Shown piece after piece: positions 1 through 10,238 of a stretch of 20,065 bases of DNA. A program made the translations under genes and the position numbers. Within the stretch, counting starts at the first letter, position 1; each line of letters opens with the position of its first letter. This stretch comes from a virus: IMG/VR virus record IMGVR_UViG_3300001750_000036, positions 1-20,065 of that record; one strand, 5' to 3'. The notes under the pieces are model-generated. The model was not told the origin of the DNA and did not search any database. It saw only the letters and a list, made by a program, of their open reading frames with translations.

Positions 1-834
1 TTGCCTATAGTCTTGATTATAGTAATATCAATAATTGTTATCAGCATTATTTTATTGGCTCTATACTTTGGATTTAACTTATTCGTTGTCTTACCTATAG
101 TGGCTTTTATAATTATATCAATAATTATTATTAGTATTGTCGTACTCACATTATTCTTTGGGTTTAATCTATTTGTTATCTTGCCTATAGTTGGAATTAT
201 AGTTATCTCAATAATTATTATTAGTATTATATTGTTAGTTTTATTCTTTGGATTTAATTTATTTGTTGTGTTACCTTTGATTGGAATTATAGTCCTGAGT
301 ATTATAGCACTTGTTATAATAGGTATTGCAATCTTTATAATAGTTCAGATTGTTATAATCGTTATTATTGGCTTTATAATTCTTGTAATAATAGCTATTA
401 TATTCATTGCTATAATTTTTGCTATAATCTTTATACTGTTTAATCTCTTTGTTGTTCTACCCATAGTCGGGATTATAGTTATATCAATAATTGTTATCAG
501 TATTATTTTAATGGCTCTATTCTTTGGATTTAATTTATTTGTTGTGTTACCAATAATTGGCTTTATAGTCTTGGGCGTTATTACTGTTGTTATAATCGGT
601 ATTATAATCTTTATTATAATCTTTATTATAGTTCAGATTGTTATAGGTATAATTATTGGCTTTATAATCTTGATTATTATATCTATTATATTTGTTGCTT
701 TAGCTCTTGTTATAAGTTTTATTCTTTTCAATCTCTTTATTGTGTTACCAATAATTGGCTTTATAATTTTGAGCATTATAGCTCTTGTTATAATAAGTGT
801 TGTAATTTTTATTATAATATTGGTTGTTATAGGT
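1..834 (+). repeat. 90-bp tandem repeat with longer spaced copies
   Basis: The Leu-Pro codon pair of the unit falls at 1, 91, 181 and 271 (exact 90-bp steps), then at 457 and 547 (90 bp), then 745. The larger steps (271 to 457, 547 to 745) contain inserted hydrophobic segments that themselves resemble each other (both contain FIIVQIV followed by IIGFIIL). The 3' end is approximate because the copies decay after about 830. All steps are multiples of three, so the reading frame is kept. Confidence 0.85.
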
Positions 835-1464
835 ATAGTTATTGACAGTTTAATTTTTGGATTTCTGATTATATCAATTATTATTCTTTTTATTATTGTC
901 TTTATAATGATTATTTCAATCCCTGTTATGATTATTATAGGGGTTATAATTGGCATGGGGTTTACTATATTAGTTGTTGTTATTATATTGATTATTATAA
1001 GTTTACCAATAATAATCATTTTTATTATACTATTTCTTTTGATTATTTTTTCTATGATTATAATGCCAATATTTACGATAATAATTTCAATGAGTTCTAT
1101 GTTTATAACACTGTTTATAATAGCTATACCCATTGTTTTTATTTTAATTATTTTATTTGTTGGAATTGGTATCCCTCTACTTATTATTGTAATTAGTGTT
1201 GTTATGATAGCTGGGGTTATACTTATAATAATTATTCCAGTAATAATAATCATTATAATTGTTATTTTTATTATTTTAATCGGATTATTAAGTTTACCTA
1301 TAATATTATTGATTGCTGTAATTATAGTTCCGTTTATTATTTTCTTTATATTAGCTGGAGGTTTATTGATAGTAGGTATAATTTTGTTTGTGATAATGCT
1401 CGTTGCAAATATGTTTAGTGGTGAAGATGTTGAGAATGAAGAAACCATAAAATTACAAAAATGA
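1..1464 (+). CDS. Extremely hydrophobic tandem-repeat membrane protein (5' end outside window)
   Basis: No family recognised. The 487 visible codons nearly all have T at codon position 2, so the product is almost entirely Ile, Val, Leu, Phe, Met, Ala and Gly. I see a single Asp (in IVIDSLIF) and a few Gln, Ser and Thr, and no Lys or Arg, until a short acidic tail (GEDVENEETIKLQK) just before the TGA at 1462-1464. A 30-residue unit of the type FGFNLFVVLPIVGIIVIS recurs. The first bases (TTGCCTATAG) align with the same point of later repeats at 91 and 181, so the gene very probably begins upstream and TTG at position 1 is not the true start. The product should be a polytopic inner-membrane protein. 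Beyond that the function is unknown. A non-coding repeat region is an alternative, but the strict second-position T over about 1.4 kb argues for translation. Confidence 0.6.
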   Translation: MPIVLIIVISIIVISIILLALYFGFNLFVVLPIVAFIIISIIIISIVVLTLFFGFNLFVILPIVGIIVISIIIISIILLVLFFGFNLFVVLPLIGIIVLSIIALVIIGIAIFIIVQIVIIVIIGFIILVIIAIIFIAIIFAIIFILFNLFVVLPIVGIIVISIIVISIILMALFFGFNLFVVLPIIGFIVLGVITVVIIGIIIFIIIFIIVQIVIGIIIGFIILIIISIIFVALALVISFILFNLFIVLPIIGFIILSIIALVIISVVIFIIILVVIGIVIDSLIFGFLIISIIILFIIVFIMIISIPVMIIIGVIIGMGFTILVVVIILIIISLPIIIIFIILFLLIIFSMIIMPIFTIIISMSSMFITLFIIAIPIVFILIILFVGIGIPLLIIVISVVMIAGVILIIIIPVIIIIIIVIFIILIGLLSLPIILLIAVIIVPFIIFFILAGGLLIVGIILFVIMLVANMFSGEDVENEETIKLQK

Positions 1465-1469
1465 GATTT

Positions 1470-1477
1470 TATAAATA
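1470..1477 (+). promoter_or_regulatory. T4-type late promoter box TATAAATA
   Basis: TATAAATA lies just after the stop of the first hydrophobic gene, in the context TTTTATAAATAAC. It is one of five such boxes at gene starts here. In T4 this octamer is the whole late promoter, recognised by the phage sigma factor gp55. With T4 spacing the transcript would start near 1483 and carry a leader of about 180 nt before the ATG at 1667. Confidence 0.75.
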
Positions 1478-1495
1478 ACAATGAAGAAATAAATA

Positions 1496-1612
1496 CGTTA
1501 GGGCATAACGGAATTAACGCTTGTGGAGATGTTTCGTTAGAAACGTCTGTGAAGCAAGAAAAAGAATGTTTGGTTATCCAAACAGATGTCACAAAAGGTT
1601 ATAATCTTTTGT
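1496..1612 (+). promoter_or_regulatory. Structured late-mRNA leader: four consecutive hairpins
   Basis: Four perfect or near-perfect inverted repeats follow each other. CGTTA/TAACG is at 1496-1510. A 9-bp stem closed by the loop GTTA is at 1527-1548 (AGATGTTTC pairs with GAAACGTCT, one G-U), with a possible outer helix GCTT/AAGC at 1519-1522 and 1552-1555. TGTTTGG/CCAAACA with loop TTAT is at 1567-1584. ACAAAAG/CTTTTGT with an 8-nt loop is at 1591-1612. The sequence GTTA occurs once in each. No hairpin is followed by a U-run, so they do not look like intrinsic terminators. The segment is richer in G and C than its surroundings and lies between a late promoter and the next start codon. A leader structure controlling translation or mRNA stability is likely; a separate small RNA is possible. 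Confidence 0.5.
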
Positions 1613-1666
1613 GGAATGTCAAAAATAATTATGATTAAATAAATAAAAAAATTCAAGGATATATAA

Positions 1667-3562
1667 ATGATTATTTTACCTATGTTGATGGCTTTAGTTT
1701 TTTTTGCAGGGTTTTTACCTTTGTTGATGATAGTATTTGCTCTTCTTTTTCTCATTGTGGGTATTCCTATTCTTATTATTTTAATTATATTATTTTTTAT
1801 CTTTATATTTATTGTTATTATTTTTATCATTTTAGCTATTTTATTTTTTATCTTTGTAGTTGTCCCTGTTAGTATTATTATTATTATTTTAGCTATGTTA
1901 TTTTTTGTTTTTATAGTCATTCCTGTTAGTATTATTATTATTATTTTAGCTATATTATTTTTTGGATTTATTATTTTTATTGTATTGCCTATCGTCATTA
2001 TTATAATAATAAGTATTATAGCTTTTGTTATAATTTTTATCTTGTTTAATTTATTTATCATTCTGCCTATGGTGGCTTTTATAGTTGTATCAATAATTAT
2101 CATTAGCATTATTTTACTGGTTTTATTCTTTGGATTTAATTTGTTTATTATATTACCTATAATACTTTTTATAATAATATTGATATTCATTATTGGCATT
2201 ATATTGTTAGTGATATTCTTTGGCTTTATTATTTTTATTGTATTGCCTTTAATTATAGGATTTGGTGGAGTTAGTCTTTTTATTATAATTATAATAGTTT
2301 TTGTTTTATTACTTAGTTTTTTGATTATAATTCTTATTGCTCAAAGTATGTTTATTATTATTATTTTGGTTATATTAGTAATAATCTTTTTAATTATTTT
2401 TATACTTATTTTTATATTATTTATTGACGCTATGTTGGGACATATTCTCGGACCGATGTTTACAACTATTTTCGCAAGTTTAGCAGATATGTTTAATAGA
2501 GTTATAAGTTTTATAACTAATGTTTTATGGAAACTTATAGATGATATAGTAGATAGAATAAAATTATTTTTAGGATATGAAATTGGGGACATCTCGTTGA
2601 GTATAGTTGACTCCATAAGAGATATAATATTTAATATGTTTAATCAAAGTGAAGTTCCTGTTGATGATTTAATAAGAAATACTATAGATTATTTTTATAA
2701 TTTAATAACAAATATTATAACAACTGTTAGAGAACGGATAAGAAATTATATGCCAATTATCCCATTGTTAGGCGAGCAAGGGACAGAATTGATAAGAACA
2801 ATTCTTGATAACAGAATAGATTCAATATTTATAGACCTAACTAATCAAATAAAAAGAGTAATATTAGGAACAACTTATTTTAGCGACCCGGATGAGATTA
2901 ATACCGGTAAAAATATAATTGACCTCATAGGTGAAATGATATTTAGAAGAAGTTCAACAGATGTAAGATTAAGTGAAACACTAGAAAACTTTATATTAGA
3001 TTTATTAAATCGGAATTTTCTATTTGATAGTATGCTTACTAATATAGGTAAATTTGGTGGTAGATTTGATTTAATGAGTGTTGTATTTGATTTTCTAGTA
3101 AAAATAATTAACAGGCTTACGGGTAAAAATGATGATGATGATACAGATGACCCACCCCCAACAGGCGGAACAGGAGAACAAAAACCAACAGAAGAAGAAA
3201 CAGATAATAGTAAAGTATCCAATTTTAAAAGTAGATTAAGTTTATTATTTGCTCCATTAAGTAGCGTTCCTTTTAATACAATTATTAGTAATTTTATAGA
3301 ATTGATAAAAGACGCTTTTAATAAATTAAGAAGTTTTTCACCTGCTGAATGGTTAGACGATTCATTCCCATATTTTAAAGATGTATTTGATGATTTTATA
3401 CTTGTTATAAAAGATTATTTTATACATATAATAAATTTTAATTTAGTTGATTGGTTGGGTGAATATGTTCCATATTTTCAAGATGTGATAGACGCTTTCC
3501 TTGTCTTAATAAAAGATTTATTTGAAATAGTGTTACCTTTTAATTTAGGAAAAAATAGATAA
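1667..3562 (+). CDS. Large membrane protein: hydrophobic repeat half plus amphipathic helical half
   Basis: No family recognised. The start is supported by ATG at 1667 with AAGGA at 1655-1659. Residues 1 to about 250 contain no charged residue and repeat the same FNLFIILP-type 30-residue unit as the upstream gene, so they should form many membrane passes. From about residue 254 (IDAMLGHILGPMF) the protein becomes an amphipathic helical domain with ordinary composition. A low-complexity acidic Pro/Thr linker follows (about 486-520, beginning KNDDDDTDDPPPTGG). The last about 100 residues hold a 34-residue repeat with a PYFxDV core. The product is probably an integral membrane protein with a large soluble domain on one side, expressed late from the box at 1470 and followed 27 bases later by a coiled-coil gene. 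Its role could be in lysis, envelope remodelling or superinfection control; the sequence does not decide. Confidence 0.7.
   Translation: MIILPMLMALVFFAGFLPLLMIVFALLFLIVGIPILIILIILFFIFIFIVIIFIILAILFFIFVVVPVSIIIIILAMLFFVFIVIPVSIIIIILAILFFGFIIFIVLPIVIIIIISIIAFVIIFILFNLFIILPMVAFIVVSIIIISIILLVLFFGFNLFIILPIILFIIILIFIIGIILLVIFFGFIIFIVLPLIIGFGGVSLFIIIIIVFVLLLSFLIIILIAQSMFIIIILVILVIIFLIIFILIFILFIDAMLGHILGPMFTTIFASLADMFNRVISFITNVLWKLIDDIVDRIKLFLGYEIGDISLSIVDSIRDIIFNMFNQSEVPVDDLIRNTIDYFYNLITNIITTVRERIRNYMPIIPLLGEQGTELIRTILDNRIDSIFIDLTNQIKRVILGTTYFSDPDEINTGKNIIDLIGEMIFRRSSTDVRLSETLENFILDLLNRNFLFDSMLTNIGKFGGRFDLMSVVFDFLVKIINRLTGKNDDDDTDDPPPTGGTGEQKPTEEETDNSKVSNFKSRLSLLFAPLSSVPFNTIISNFIELIKDAFNKLRSFSPAEWLDDSFPYFKDVFDDFILVIKDYFIHIINFNLVDWLGEYVPYFQDVIDAFLVLIKDLFEIVLPFNLGKNR
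1864..1980 (+). repeat. 57-bp tandem duplication (19 residues)
   Basis: The unit coding VPVSIIIIILAMLFFVFIV occurs twice in direct tandem. CCTGTTAGT appears at 1865 and 1922, 57 bp apart, and is followed both times by an ATT run and TTAGCTAT. The copies differ by few bases, which suggests recent duplication within the hydrophobic half of the gene. Confidence 0.8.
2063..2332 (+). repeat. Three 90-bp units matching the repeat of the upstream gene
   Basis: Leu-Pro codon pairs lie at 2063, 2153 and 2243, exactly 90 bp apart, each in the FNLFIILP or FIIFIVLP context with FFGF between units. The unit length and motif equal those in the gene at 1-1464, so the two genes share one repeat family. An earlier degenerate copy has its Leu-Pro at 1985. 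Confidence 0.8.
3256..3547 (+). repeat. About 102-bp degenerate repeat (34 residues), nearly three copies
   Basis: In the C-terminal end of the large membrane protein, the segment EWLDDSFPYFKDVFDDF is followed 34 residues later by DWLGEYVPYFQDVIDAF. A weaker first copy (VPFNTIISNFIELIKDAF) precedes them. Each copy ends in an IKD motif (ELIKD, LVIKD, VLIKD). The pattern suggests a repeated amphipathic helical hairpin. Confidence 0.7.
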
Positions 3563-3589: not shown

Positions 3590-4219
3590 ATGGTAGCAAG
3601 TAACGATAATTTAGAAAAGTTGTCAACACAATCTTTACTTAAAAGATTAAAAGAAAGAGAAACTGTACTTGAAAAATTAAAAAATAGGGAAACGGTATTT
3701 GATAAATTAAGAGAAAGAGAAACTGTATTTGATAAGTTAAGAGAGAGAGATTCTTTAATTAAACGGTTAAGAAAAAAAAGATGGGCGTTAATTAAAAAAA
3801 TAAGAAATAGAGATTCTTTAATTAAGCGATTAAGAAAAAGAAGAAGAACACTACTTAATAATACAAAAGATAGAATAGTTGGTAAAGTAACAGATAGAAT
3901 ACCTTTATTTGATGAAATAATAAATATTATTGATTTAATAAAAGATGTGCGTTCTTTATTTGATTTTGATAAAAAACCTGTAAAACAATCTCATTCGGAT
4001 ATTATAAAAGATGATGTTGAAAAATTAAAAACTTCTGTAAGTAGATTATTTGAAAAACTTACCACCGGAACAACGGAAGATGAAACAGAAGATGAAGAAT
4101 TAGATTTATTGGAAGAAATAAATTTAATAGAAGAAGAAGAATTACCCGAAGAAGAGTTAGCTTTTGAAGAAAAATTTAAAAGGCAACGAGAAAAAGAAAA
4201 GGAATATTTAAAGGGGTAA
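3590..4219 (+). CDS. Charged coiled-coil protein with 10/11-residue repeats
   Basis: No family recognised. ATG at 3590 is preceded by GAGGAT (3580-3585). Residues 17-88 are seven tandem units of ten or eleven residues: four of type FDKLRERETV, then 11, 10 and 11-residue units such as IKRLRKKRWAL. Charge changes along the protein, with mixed Glu/Arg at the start, Lys/Arg in the middle, and a strongly acidic C-terminal third (about residues 160-195) before a final basic stretch. There is no signal peptide and no membrane segment. Repeats of 10 to 11 residues are typical of right-handed or flattened coiled coils rather than heptad coils. The gene stops one base before the next ATG, so translation is probably coupled. 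A structural rod or a cytoplasmic partner of the preceding membrane protein is a reasonable guess. Confidence 0.7.
   Translation: MVASNDNLEKLSTQSLLKRLKERETVLEKLKNRETVFDKLRERETVFDKLRERDSLIKRLRKKRWALIKKIRNRDSLIKRLRKRRRTLLNNTKDRIVGKVTDRIPLFDEIINIIDLIKDVRSLFDFDKKPVKQSHSDIIKDDVEKLKTSVSRLFEKLTTGTTEDETEDEELDLLEEINLIEEEELPEEELAFEEKFKRQREKEKEYLKG
3638..3853 (+). repeat. 30/33-bp tandem repeats coding a coiled coil
   Basis: Seven units code residues 17-26, 27-36, 37-46, 47-56, 57-67, 68-77 and 78-88 of the coiled-coil protein. Third and fourth units are almost identical in DNA (ACTGTATTTGATAA type), and GATTCTTTAATTAA occurs at the junctions before the fifth and seventh units. Growth by unequal recombination or polymerase slippage is likely. 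Confidence 0.85.
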
Positions 4220-5900: not shown

Positions 5901-6659
5901 ATGAGTGATATACCTTCAATGAAAGTAAAATTACCAAAGATTGATGTTGTAAATTATACTTTAGAGATACCGTCAACTAAAAAAGAATTACTTTATAGAC
6001 CTTTTTTAGTTAAAGAAGAAAAGATATTATTACAAGCTACACAACAAAATAATGAAAAGGATACTATTCGAGCAATAACACAAATAATTAATAATTGTAT
6101 TTTAACCGAAGATTTTAATGTTGATGAATTAACTCTTTTTGATTTAGAATATATTTTTTTACAATTAAGAGCTAAATCTATTGGTGAAGTAATAGAGTTG
6201 ACATTAAGTCATCCTAATAATAAAAATAAAAGTGGTGAAGAATGTACTGGAGTTTTCCCTTATGAATTAAATGTAGATGATATAGAAGTTTGTTTTAATG
6301 AAAAAAACAATAATGTCATTAAATTGTCTGATACTATGGGAGTAAAATTAAAATATCCAAGTTATAAATTATTACCTAAATTAACTAAAATTAAGGAGGA
6401 TAATTTTGACTCCATTTTAGATGTAATTTTAAATTGTGTAGATTATATCTATGATGGTGATAATGTTTATTATGCCAAAGATATATCAAAATCAGAGTTG
6501 AGTGAATTTTTTATGAATTTTAATACAAAACAGTTTCAAGAAGTACAAACTTTTTTTGAAACATTACCAATTATTAGAAAAGAAATAATTTATACTTGTC
6601 CGAAATGTGGTGAGGAAGAAAAAATTGTACTGGAGGGTTTGCAAAATTTTTTCACCTAA
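5901..6659 (+). CDS. 26: Baseplate hub protein, gp26-like (T4 baseplate family)
   Basis: A 252-residue protein starting two bases after gp32, with GAGGAG (5886-5891) inside the end of gene 32. The N-terminal pattern (MKVKLPKIDVVNYTLEIPST, then LLYRPFLVKEEKILLQA) and FNVDELTLFDLEYIFLQLRAKS are those of T4 gp26-like baseplate hub proteins found in T4-like and marine myophages. A CPKCG motif near the C-terminus (about residues 234-238) is followed by the end LEGLQNFFT. These proteins act in hub assembly around the tape measure. The reading frame ends on a slippery run, and a second gp51-like segment continues in the -1 frame. The gene may thus give both this product and a fusion of about 320 residues ending at 6862. 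Whether the product is a structural hub subunit or a chaperone is uncertain. Confidence 0.8.
   Translation: MSDIPSMKVKLPKIDVVNYTLEIPSTKKELLYRPFLVKEEKILLQATQQNNEKDTIRAITQIINNCILTEDFNVDELTLFDLEYIFLQLRAKSIGEVIELTLSHPNNKNKSGEECTGVFPYELNVDDIEVCFNEKNNNVIKLSDTMGVKLKYPSYKLLPKLTKIKEDNFDSILDVILNCVDYIYDGDNVYYAKDISKSELSEFFMNFNTKQFQEVQTFFETLPIIRKEIIYTCPKCGEEEKIVLEGLQNFFT
6632..6653 (+). promoter_or_regulatory. Putative programmed -1 frameshift site
   Basis: In the gp26 frame the sequence at 6644-6653 reads A AAT TTT TTC. It contains two overlapping heptamers of the X XXY YYZ form: A AAT TTT (6644-6650) and T TTT TTC (6647-6653). Six bases upstream lies GGAGGG (6632-6637), an SD-like stimulator as known for E. 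coli dnaX. The -1 frame is open from here through the gp51-like segment to 6862, while the zero frame ends at 6659. I see no strong downstream hairpin. Confidence 0.6.
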
Positions 6660-6676
6660 GCGTTGGCTATAACAGT

Positions 6677-6862
6677 TTGGTACTTTATTATAGAATCAAT
6701 TTTGCTTTAATGACACACTATAAGTATAGTTTAAATGAATTAGATAATATGATACCTTATGAGCGAGAAATTTATATAGCTTTACTTCAACAATGGATAA
6801 AAGAGGAGAATGAAAAGACAGAAAAGTTGAATAGAGAAAGAAAAGTTAAAAATAGAAAGTAA
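6677..6862 (+). CDS. 51: gp51-like hub assembly segment, probably the -1 frame extension of gp26
   Basis: The visible product (61 residues from TTG 6677) contains YYRINFALMTHYKYSLNELDNMIP followed by YEREIY, quoted here as YYRINFALMTHYKYS and LNELDNMIPYEREIY. This matches what I remember of the C-terminal or gp51-type segment of T4-like hub assembly proteins. The C-terminus is a charged helix. TTG 6677 has no ribosome site. The frame is open upstream across the end of gp26 (FFHLSVGYNSLVLYY), so translation by -1 slippage at 6644-6653 seems better than independent initiation. The fusion would append about 70 residues. The alternatives are a separate weakly started gene, or initiation at ATG 6710, which would cut off conserved residues. 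The stop at 6860-6862 runs straight into the first terminator hairpin. Confidence 0.65.
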   Translation: MVLYYRINFALMTHYKYSLNELDNMIPYEREIYIALLQQWIKEENEKTEKLNRERKVKNRK

Positions 6863-6888
6863 AAAGGTTGGGGAATCCCCAACCTTTT
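6862..6888 (+). terminator. Intrinsic terminator hairpin 1
   Basis: A perfect 12-bp stem AAAAGGTTGGGG / CCCCAACCTTTT with a three-base loop (AAT) directly after the gp51-like stop. The short U-run is formed by the 3' arm. The symmetry also allows function on the opposite strand, though no gene there needs it. Confidence 0.8.
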
Positions 6889-6892
6889 ATGG

Positions 6893-6933
6893 AGAGGTCA
6901 GGAGACGAAAACTAAGTTTTCTGACCTCTTTTT
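6893..6933 (+). terminator. Intrinsic terminator hairpin 2
   Basis: The 9-bp stem AGAGGTCAG / CTGACCTCT continues inward with AAAAC / GTTTT after a six-base bulge (GAGACG). It is followed by five T (6929-6933). It stands four bases behind the first hairpin, and its T-run shares its last base with the next late promoter. Confidence 0.8.
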
Positions 6934-6940
6934 ATAAATA
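6933..6940 (+). promoter_or_regulatory. T4-type late promoter box TATAAATA
   Basis: TATAAATA in the context CTTTTTATAAATAAG, immediately after the tandem terminators and seven bases before ATG 6948. With T4 spacing the transcript would start about 6946, two bases before the start codon. It restarts transcription for the tail genes. Confidence 0.8.
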
Positions 6941-6947
6941 AGACAAG

Positions 6948-9900
6948 ATGGATAACTCTCAAAAAGAATTAAGTAATAATTTAAAAAAAGCCGTTGAGCC
7001 TTTGGTTCAACGAACGGAAAAGTTTATTAAAGTTGTATCTGAAAATATATCAAAAAATAATAAATCTGTATCCAATATTCAAAAACCATTTATAAAAACT
7101 TTTAATTTAATAGATAAGAATTTGGGTAGTAATATTACCAAATTAGATAATATTGTTCCAGTTAAAGATAAAGAAAGTAATATTGTAACAAAAGCAATTA
7201 AACCTATTTTATCAAAATTACCAACCGCAAAAGATTTTGACCCTACAAAAATGGGCGATGTTTTCTTTTCCGCATTAGACGCTAGTGGTATAATGGGCGG
7301 AATGATGAGGCAAAGTCCAGCTTTAATGCTTGCAACAAGTTTTATCGCTAAAAAAGGTCATTCATTGATGGAAGGTTTAAGAGAAAAACGAGTACCGAAA
7401 GAAGACGGTATTAAGAAAATACCCATTAAAGATAATAAAGAAAAAGAAAAACAAATATCTCAACCTTCATTTATAAAAGAAAAAGAAGTTGAAAATATTA
7501 AAGAAACTTCTTTTAATGACACTGATTTAAATATTTTATCTAGTATTTTAAATAATATATATAATACTTTAAGAGATATATTAAATTCAGTACATAGAAG
7601 TTTTTCTTTTTCAAAAGATACAGTACAAGCTGATGAACACAATTTATTAGCTCAAAGAGAAGCTACCAGAGAACAATCAAATGCTTTACAACTTGCTTTG
7701 GGTGGAATTGCTGGTGCTGGAACATCGACTATAATTGAAGGTGATAATATTAAAAAAATGGGTGGTATGTTTTCGAGTGGCATAATGGGTATAAAAAATA
7801 CATTTATGACAGGAGCAAGTAAATTAGTTAAAGCTATTGCAAGTCCAACTGGTGCTTTAGTTGCCGGAGTTGCGGCTGTGGGGTTAGCAACCTTTGGAGC
7901 AGTTAAAGCATTAAAACGAACGGGGGAAATAACAGGAAAACAAGAAGAAAATATAACAGCTCTTGATAAAACATTAGTAGGTACTGCTGGAGCTTTAAGT
8001 GGTTTGACGCTTGGATTAGTAAAAACCGAAACTATGTATAAAGGGATACAATGGGTGGGGGATTGGTTTAAAAAATTTCCAGTATTTTTAGAAAAATTAC
8101 CTCAAATGTTTAGTATTGTAATTAAAAAATCTGTAGATTGGATTTTAGGGTTTTTTCAAAAATTTCAAGAATTTATCCCTGAATTACGAAATATGATTGT
8201 AAATATAGCTACTTGGTTTGTTAAAGTATTTAAAAATATTATAAAATTATCTTTAAAATTATTATGGGAATTAATAAAAAATCTTCCTAAAATGTTATTG
8301 GGGGTATTAAAGTTATCATTTGTTATATTTAAAAATGTAGTAATATTATTAGGACAATTATTATGGGAATCTGTAAAAATGATATTAAAGGGTTTATTAA
8401 ATATTCCTAAATTATTATGGAATGGAATAAAAGCACTACCGGATTTATTATGGAAAGGATTAAAATTATATTTTGAAATATTAAAAGGATTTTTTTTCAC
8501 ACTCCCTATGATGATAATGAAATTATTTTTAAAATTACCAATGTTATTATGGAAAGGTTTAACAAAATTTGGAAGTTGGATATGGAAAAAATTTATAAGT
8601 TTACCAACGTTAATATGGGAGAAATTACAAGGAATATTTACAGGAATTGTTGATGCTATAAAAACAGTCATTGCTACAATACCCGGAGTTAAAACCGAAG
8701 ATGAAAAAGAAATGAACAAGTTAAGAGAAGAATTAGATGATACAAGAGGCGAAAATCAAAAAGAAGTTATTATTAAAATTATAGATAAAGCTAGAGATAT
8801 AGGTACGAAGAAAGGATTGCGTCAAATAACTAAAAAAGAAGATGAAGAAGAAAGACAATTAACGGATAAAGAAAGGGCTGAAATAATAGATAAAGAAGTA
8901 GTAAAAGCCCAATTAGAATGGTTAGAAGAAATACGAGGAGTTCAGAATCTAATGTTAAGACCTTTAAGATGGCTCGGAGTAGGTGGAAAAGAAATAGAAC
9001 AAAAAGGAATTGCCGACCTAAACAAGAAAATTCAAACACTCGAAAGAGGTAAAAGTATCCCTCAATCTTCTTCTACAACACAAGAGATAAAGGTAATAGG
9101 TCAAAAAGAAAAAGGTGGGGTGATATATAAAACTGGATTATATAAACTTCATAAAGGCGAAGAAGTTATCCCATCTGATACAGTAAATAATTTAACTCCA
9201 AGCATTTTTAGTGATAAATTAACTAAAAATTTTATTCCAGCGATGGCTTCTTTTTTGATGGTAACTTCTTCAGGAATATTACAACCACAAAATAATTTTA
9301 ATACTTTTAATAATAATATAAATTCTCCAGAAAATTCAAAATTATCTACTATTATAAATAAACACATAATAGACCCCTTTGAAAAATTATTTAAAATTGA
9401 AAGTCGGGATACTTCCTCAAAAAAAATAACAACATTTAATATTAACAATATCAATAAATCTTCATCTATAAGTGATAAAAATGATACATTTACTGATATG
9501 GCTAATAAATTTAATCCTTTACGTATATTTCCGTCATTAAAAAGAAAAGAACCTAATAAAAATGACATATATAATTATTTAATAAATAATAAAGGTACAA
9601 CTCCTTTACAAGCTCAGGGGATTATAGCTAATATTGAAGCAGAGTCAAGTTTTAGAACAGGAGCGATGGGCGATTCTGGTACATCTGGAGGGTTATTTCA
9701 ACATCATAATACAAGGTTTGAAGGAATGAAAAATTATGTGGGTGGAGATAATTGGAAACAAGATTGGAGAGGTCAAATAGATTATGCTTTTACTGAACGT
9801 GAAATGAAAAAATATTTATTAAGAGAAATTAAAACTATATCAGAAGCAACCAGTTATTTTGTAAGAGATTTTGAAAAACCTAAAAATACAAATTTTGAAA

Positions 9901-10238
9901 TTAAAAAAAGAATTAAAATTGCAAAATTAAATCAAGAAAAATTAACTTTAAATCCACAAAAACAATCATTTCAACAACAATATACTATGCGTTCTAATAT
10001 CCCTACTGTAATATCTCCGTTAGAAAAGCAATATATGATGTTACAACAAAGAGAAGCTCAACGAGACACTTTAAAATTACAACAAGCAACCGAAGAAAGT
10101 CAAGTTACAAGCGGAGGGAATAATCTTGTTTCTGCAAATAATAATAATACTAATAATGTTAGTACAAATACAATAAACGTCAGTGATAGCACAGGTTTAA
10201 ATGATACGCTTATGAACATACATAAGTTTATAAATTAA
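6948..10238 (+). CDS. Tape measure protein with tail-lysozyme domain
   Basis: A 1096-residue protein, the functional counterpart of T4 gp29 by position after the hub chaperone and by composition. It would set tail length and leave the tail with the DNA. The N-terminal about 200 residues are charged helices. Around 255-345 there are Gly/Ala-rich hydrophobic segments (LVAGVAAVGLATFGAVKAL). From about 370 to 580 lies a Trp/Leu-rich amphipathic repeat region (IPKLLWNGIKALPDLLWKGL). The segment YKTGLYKLHKGEEVIPSD (about 722-745) is typical of tape-measure C-termini. At about 875-985 is a lysozyme-like domain (GIIANIEAESSFRTGAMGDS, then GGLFQHH), with a Glu in NIEAESSF the likely catalytic residue. 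It is the Phage_lysozyme2 / tail lysozyme type, which opens peptidoglycan during DNA entry. The Asn-rich C-terminus may be unstructured. The only plausible start has no ribosome site and lies almost at the predicted transcript start. Confidence 0.85.
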   Translation: MDNSQKELSNNLKKAVEPLVQRTEKFIKVVSENISKNNKSVSNIQKPFIKTFNLIDKNLGSNITKLDNIVPVKDKESNIVTKAIKPILSKLPTAKDFDPTKMGDVFFSALDASGIMGGMMRQSPALMLATSFIAKKGHSLMEGLREKRVPKEDGIKKIPIKDNKEKEKQISQPSFIKEKEVENIKETSFNDTDLNILSSILNNIYNTLRDILNSVHRSFSFSKDTVQADEHNLLAQREATREQSNALQLALGGIAGAGTSTIIEGDNIKKMGGMFSSGIMGIKNTFMTGASKLVKAIASPTGALVAGVAAVGLATFGAVKALKRTGEITGKQEENITALDKTLVGTAGALSGLTLGLVKTETMYKGIQWVGDWFKKFPVFLEKLPQMFSIVIKKSVDWILGFFQKFQEFIPELRNMIVNIATWFVKVFKNIIKLSLKLLWELIKNLPKMLLGVLKLSFVIFKNVVILLGQLLWESVKMILKGLLNIPKLLWNGIKALPDLLWKGLKLYFEILKGFFFTLPMMIMKLFLKLPMLLWKGLTKFGSWIWKKFISLPTLIWEKLQGIFTGIVDAIKTVIATIPGVKTEDEKEMNKLREELDDTRGENQKEVIIKIIDKARDIGTKKGLRQITKKEDEEERQLTDKERAEIIDKEVVKAQLEWLEEIRGVQNLMLRPLRWLGVGGKEIEQKGIADLNKKIQTLERGKSIPQSSSTTQEIKVIGQKEKGGVIYKTGLYKLHKGEEVIPSDTVNNLTPSIFSDKLTKNFIPAMASFLMVTSSGILQPQNNFNTFNNNINSPENSKLSTIINKHIIDPFEKLFKIESRDTSSKKITTFNINNINKSSSISDKNDTFTDMANKFNPLRIFPSLKRKEPNKNDIYNYLINNKGTTPLQAQGIIANIEAESSFRTGAMGDSGTSGGLFQHHNTRFEGMKNYVGGDNWKQDWRGQIDYAFTEREMKKYLLREIKTISEATSYFVRDFEKPKNTNFEIKKRIKIAKLNQEKLTLNPQKQSFQQQYTMRSNIPTVISPLEKQYMMLQQREAQRDTLKLQQATEESQVTSGGNNLVSANNNNTNNVSTNTINVSDSTGLNDTLMNIHKFIN

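Follow-up and report, generated by a model that had tools for sequence, protein, structure and literature searches.

Comparative evidence for a programmed -1 frameshift joining gp26 and gp51 in the probable tail assembly chaperone locus of a T4-like marine phage

Here we analyzed a 20,065-base virus record (IMGVR_UViG_3300001750_000036; GC 27%), referred to throughout as the window. It carries a homolog of T4 gene 26, a gp51 segment that continues in the -1 frame and, directly 3' of this gp26/gp51 locus, a gene for a tape measure protein (Table 1). The gp26 ORF matches T4_baseplate in Pfam (PF12322, E = 2.9e-60) and phrog_150 in PHROGs (E = 1.1e-64), indicating that its product is a TAC-N homologous to T4 gp26. 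The AlphaFold2 model of this protein has a pLDDT of 90 and clear matches among viral gp26 models. Against the PDB, the highest-probability match was the HK97 tail assembly chaperone 2ob9, which is weak (E = 0.63, probability 0.87, TM 0.52 by target), and no credible match was found when solved structures were searched by sequence with gp26 and gp51. The tape measure assignment is based on matches to phrog_9570 (tape measure, E = 2e-14) and Phage_lysozyme2 (E = 7.9e-18). Rfam and tRNA scans gave no matches.

Table 1 Features of the gp26/gp51 locus and the adjacent tape measure gene, with coordinates in the window.
Feature	Positions	Strand	Basis
gp26 homolog, short product (TAC-N, 252 aa)	5901..6659	+	C-terminus ...LEGLQNFFT then stop; Pfam, PHROGs, AlphaFold2
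SD-like GGAGGG; inner GAGG at 6633-6636, 10 nt before T TTT TTC	6632..6637	+	sequence; codon -5 GAG bias in relatives
First slippery heptamer, A AAT TTT, gp26 (0) frame	6644..6650	+	sequence
Slippery heptamer T TTT TTC, conserved putative -1 shift site, gp26 frame	6647..6653	+	kept in relatives
-1 frame extension, gp51 segment, TAC-C, 69 codons + stop	6653..6862	+	phrog_634, phrog_150, helix prediction
0-frame stop TAA of the short product	6657..6659	+	sequence
Tape measure protein (gp29 position), expected chaperone partner	6948..10238	+	phrog_9570, Phage_lysozyme2

Elsewhere in the window, positions 1-3562 hold two long ORFs composed largely of near-tandem 51-90 bp repeats that encode almost only Ile, Val, Leu and Phe. 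These repeats are membrane-like, such as FFGFNLFVVLPI, and the ORFs had no match in PHROGs. The ORF at 3590-4219 contains 30-60 bp repeats that encode charged Arg/Lys/Glu repeats (LKERETVLEKLKNRETVFDKL...). Between gp51 and the tape measure gene (6862-6948) there is a perfect 12-bp hairpin (AAAAGGTTGGGG...) and a second hairpin, GAGGTCAG...CTGACCTC, with a T-run. At 6933-6940, 7 nt before the tape measure ATG at 6948, lies TATAAATA, which resembles a T4 late promoter and could give a nearly leaderless tape measure mRNA; this motif is not enriched within the window.

The 3' end of gp26 reads CTG GAG GGT TTG CAA AAT TTT TTC ACC TAA. The original prediction, made from the window alone, described GGAGGG, six bases and then A AAT TTT TTC with two overlapping slippery heptamers shortly before the zero-frame stop, and the sequence reads exactly so: the decamer spans 6644-6653, and a single codon separates the second heptamer from the TAA. 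On its own the motif is unconvincing, because this AT-rich window contains 91 canonical in-frame heptamers. In-frame T6 is present at 0.39% of window codons, with approximately 0.02 expected within the last five codons of a gene, and a heptamer placed just before a stop and followed by an open -1 frame is an unusual combination. Chance is excluded by the conservation of the site in homologs.

A scan for close relatives with the single window protein returned one locus only, and alignments were therefore used as queries. With the gp26 body as the query and its C-terminal part left out, we recovered 80 further loci, or 81 with the window. In all 81, T TTT TTN occurs in frame close to the 3' end of gp26 and the gp51 frame is open in -1, although the contig edge truncates two of these loci. 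An independent gp51 query found T TTT TTN in 78 of 80 loci. After removal of near-identical loci, the set comprised 148, in which the heptamer is TTTTTTC (106), TTTTTTT (29) or TTTTTTA (13). Since the 13 TTTTTTA loci exchange the 0-frame Phe for Leu yet retain all six Ts, selection acts on the nucleotides; elsewhere in gp26, only 14 of 154 Phe-Phe pairs use T TTT TTY. By the same comparison, the first heptamer, A AAT TTT, is not the conserved element, since only 30 of the 148 relatives have AAT ahead of the T-run.

This conservation also bears on whether the overlap is simply a sequencing or assembly error that splits one true gene. Errors are common in T-runs, and the shift does sit in a T-run, but the frame relation recurs in every one of the 81 loci from independent assemblies and in isolated, finished genomes, for example those of P-SSM2, S-ShM2 and Aeh1. 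Independent genomes with the same frame relation refute such an error, and we give it practically no weight.

Sixteen phages from public records were also compared. Their gp26 genes end with an in-frame T TTT TT(C/T/G), save those of T2, CRW-SP2 and Vibrio phage D494, the latter two being phages of or near the Ackermannviridae. Wherever the T-run is found among these phages, the -1 frame enters the gp51 segment. Ackermannviridae and related Vibrio/Aeromonas phages have no T6; their gp26 ends with NTT TTY, but the -1 frame continues openly into a gp51-like segment, and TAATG is present at the gp26 stop in some of these phages. Such T6-less loci may have a degenerate slip site or may rely on translational coupling. 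A scan of viral contigs for Ackermannviridae relatives found none.

Downstream of the slip site, the -1 frame is open as predicted. It extends from 6653 through a stop codon whose last base is 6862, and reads HLSVGYNSLVLYYRINFALMTH... The product of a -1 shift would be a gp26-gp51 fusion of 320 aa. The gp51 segment matches phrog_634, baseplate hub assembly catalyst (E = 4.6e-23), as well as the C-terminal part of phrog_150 (E = 3.3e-6), and is predicted to form three helices. Open -1 frames of 69 codons or more are found at 0.5% of coding positions, and shuffling the segment produces one in 0.07% of cases. In the stretch between the slip site and the first ATG, substitutions in relatives number 2627, 2513 and 5225 at the first, second and third positions of the -1 frame, respectively, and thus fall mainly at the third.

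Public records list gp51 as a gene of its own, with inconsistent starts; the P-HM2 gp51, for example, is annotated at 30 aa. It could accordingly be a separate small protein, produced by reinitiation or from a weak internal start after the gp26 stop, with no fusion. Reinitiation is possible in about one third of relatives, as the first ATG lies at codon 5 from the slip site in 54 of 148, though without an SD, and in some relatives an ATG occurs at or just past the gp26 stop (Vibrio phage CZ01 and some Ackermannviridae, for example, have TAATG). Of the other relatives, 67 have their first ATG at codons 20-21, 13 have it elsewhere and 14 have none. Over the whole set, an SD-like 4-mer stands before the first ATG in only 5 loci. 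The window itself agrees with the prediction that the downstream segment lacks a usable start signal: the -1 frame offers TTG 6677 as its first start-like codon and, already within the conserved segment, 6710 as its first ATG, both lacking an SD. Residues upstream of any ATG are conserved in the -1 frame in relatives, the T-run is kept at the nucleotide level, and the T4-type gp51 itself includes a gp26 domain. Against this evidence a separate gp51 is very improbable, and the inconsistent annotations probably truncate a real fused product.

T4 and its relatives are informative here. The original prediction held that relatives encoding the two parts as separate genes would speak against a frameshift, and T4 and T2 literally have such genes, yet their gp51 carries its own gp26-like N-terminal domain. 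In T2, a close relative of T4, the gp26 and gp51 genes are on opposite strands. T2 gp51 begins with a T4_baseplate domain (residues 1-201, E = 4.3e-55) and continues into the gp51 segment; its alignment with the window-type fusion spans the junction (E = 1.4e-7). The frameshift product is therefore the counterpart of a real, separate T4-type protein, with the same gp26-like domain and C-terminal segment, and because T4/T2 gp51 matches the fused product, the separate genes support the frameshift rather than oppose it. Unlike the window, T2 gp26 has neither a T-run nor an open -1 frame, the two forms being encoded by separate genes. The two T4-type genes appear as hub assembly chaperones in PMC3004832.

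The region around the slip site was compared with that of dnaX, to which the original prediction had likened the SD-slippery arrangement. The E. coli dnaX heptamer A AAA AAG has an SD-like element approximately 10 nt upstream and a strong hairpin downstream. The likeness holds upstream: the window heptamer is in phase, with an SD-like element at about the same distance and a GAG bias at codon -5 among relatives. The window differs from dnaX in its heptamer, T TTT TTC, and in having no significant downstream hairpin. Among the 108 loci with Glu-Gly at this site, codon -5 is GAG in 85 (79%), compared to 25% for Glu codons across gp26 bodies (p ~1e-31) and 19 of 70 Glu-Gly pairs in gp26 bodies (p ~8e-12), though these p-values overstate the count of independent events because related sequences are not independent. 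No GAG preference was found at other nearby Glu codons with a useful sample, so it is confined to codon -5, where it yields a GAGG ending 10 nt 5' of the heptamer. This pattern argues for selection on an SD-like stimulator placed about 10 nt ahead of the slip site.

On the 3' side, the 50 nt of relatives starting 12 nt past the heptamer start fold more stably than shuffles (mean z -1.85, vs -0.54 in control stretches). An 11-bp hairpin lies 5 nt past the heptamer in 46 of 148 loci, and one of its positions varies between TA, AT and GC. As a stimulator in the window, a downstream hairpin was rejected, as the window RNA has z = -0.26 and retains only 5 of the 11 pairs of the relatives' hairpin.

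These flanking signals help to distinguish ribosomal slippage from slippage of RNA polymerase, which would add or drop a U at the T-run. Six consecutive Ts in AT-rich genomes would favor polymerase slippage as well. But the phase of T TTT TTN relative to the frame is fixed and most runs are exactly six Ts rather than longer, while an SD-like element with the spacing of dnaX, joined in a third of relatives by a hairpin 5 nt past the heptamer, is more in keeping with the ribosome. We consider transcriptional slippage highly unlikely. By contrast, the predicted programmed -1 frameshift joining gp26 to gp51 is strongly supported by this comparison of sequences.

The frameshift is strongly conserved, and it is not new. 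A paper by Vladimirov, Gautam and Davidson (Virology 2022) reportedly names T4 genes 26 and 51 in its abstract and describes frameshifting as kept in several T4-like groups. The original prediction knew of no description of such slippage in T4-like hub genes; passages in two later papers citing Vladimirov, Gautam and Davidson 2022 (doi 10.1016/j.virol.2021.11.003) point to one. According to the first, some T4-like phages do without frameshifting and encode a short chaperone and a long, fused one in separate genes (PMC10885494); according to the second, the TAC-N genes of T4-like phages contain poly-T slippery sequences (PMC12846349). The TAC-N/TAC-NC genes that those passages concern, reportedly gp26/gp51, are of the same type as those in the window, with short and long forms. 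Since their frameshifting has, according to those passages, already been described, the window is a further case, adding a new uncultivated member. The Vandenendeviridae, another phage family, also have a -1 frameshift at a T-rich site where TAC-N ends, ahead of the tape measure gene as in the window, although with GTTTTT as the slippery core (PMC12846349). A limited literature search found no report of an SD-like element at such slip sites, from which novelty does not follow, and the SD-like stimulator and lineage-specific hairpin may be a new detail. We suggest tentatively, with slightly more doubt than confidence, that the composite signal is unreported, consisting of a selected SD-like element 10 nt upstream in most lineages and a hairpin evolved in one cyanophage-like lineage, so that stimulators turn over around a fixed T-run.

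Overall, we consider it very probable that the gp26/gp51 region serves as the tail assembly chaperone locus of a marine, T4-like (Kyanoviridae-like) phage, which would express gp26 and a frameshifted gp26-gp51 by slippage on T TTT TTC. The lambda slippery site, G GGA AAG, differs from this heptamer. In lambda, a short chaperone (gpG) and its longer version made by -1 frameshifting (gpGT) are encoded just ahead of the tape measure gene (PMC5009743), the same order as in the window. We infer that most ribosomes would terminate at the TAA and release gp26 as the short chaperone, and that a minority would slip one base back on the heptamer, probably aided by pairing of GGAGGG with 16S rRNA. Slipped ribosomes would then read on in the -1 frame and produce the long form. 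By analogy with gpG/gpGT, gp26 may coat the tape measure protein, the product of the next gene, and the fused tail domain may recruit tube subunits.

For the widespread marine phage group to which these loci belong, this frameshift reading corrects the annotation of gp51 as an independent "baseplate hub assembly catalyst". It also offers a reason for the presence of two related hub-assembly genes, 26 and 51, in T4. Finally, the apparent SD-like stimulator and the lineage-specific hairpin provide a natural series for the evolution of frameshift signals around a fixed slip site.
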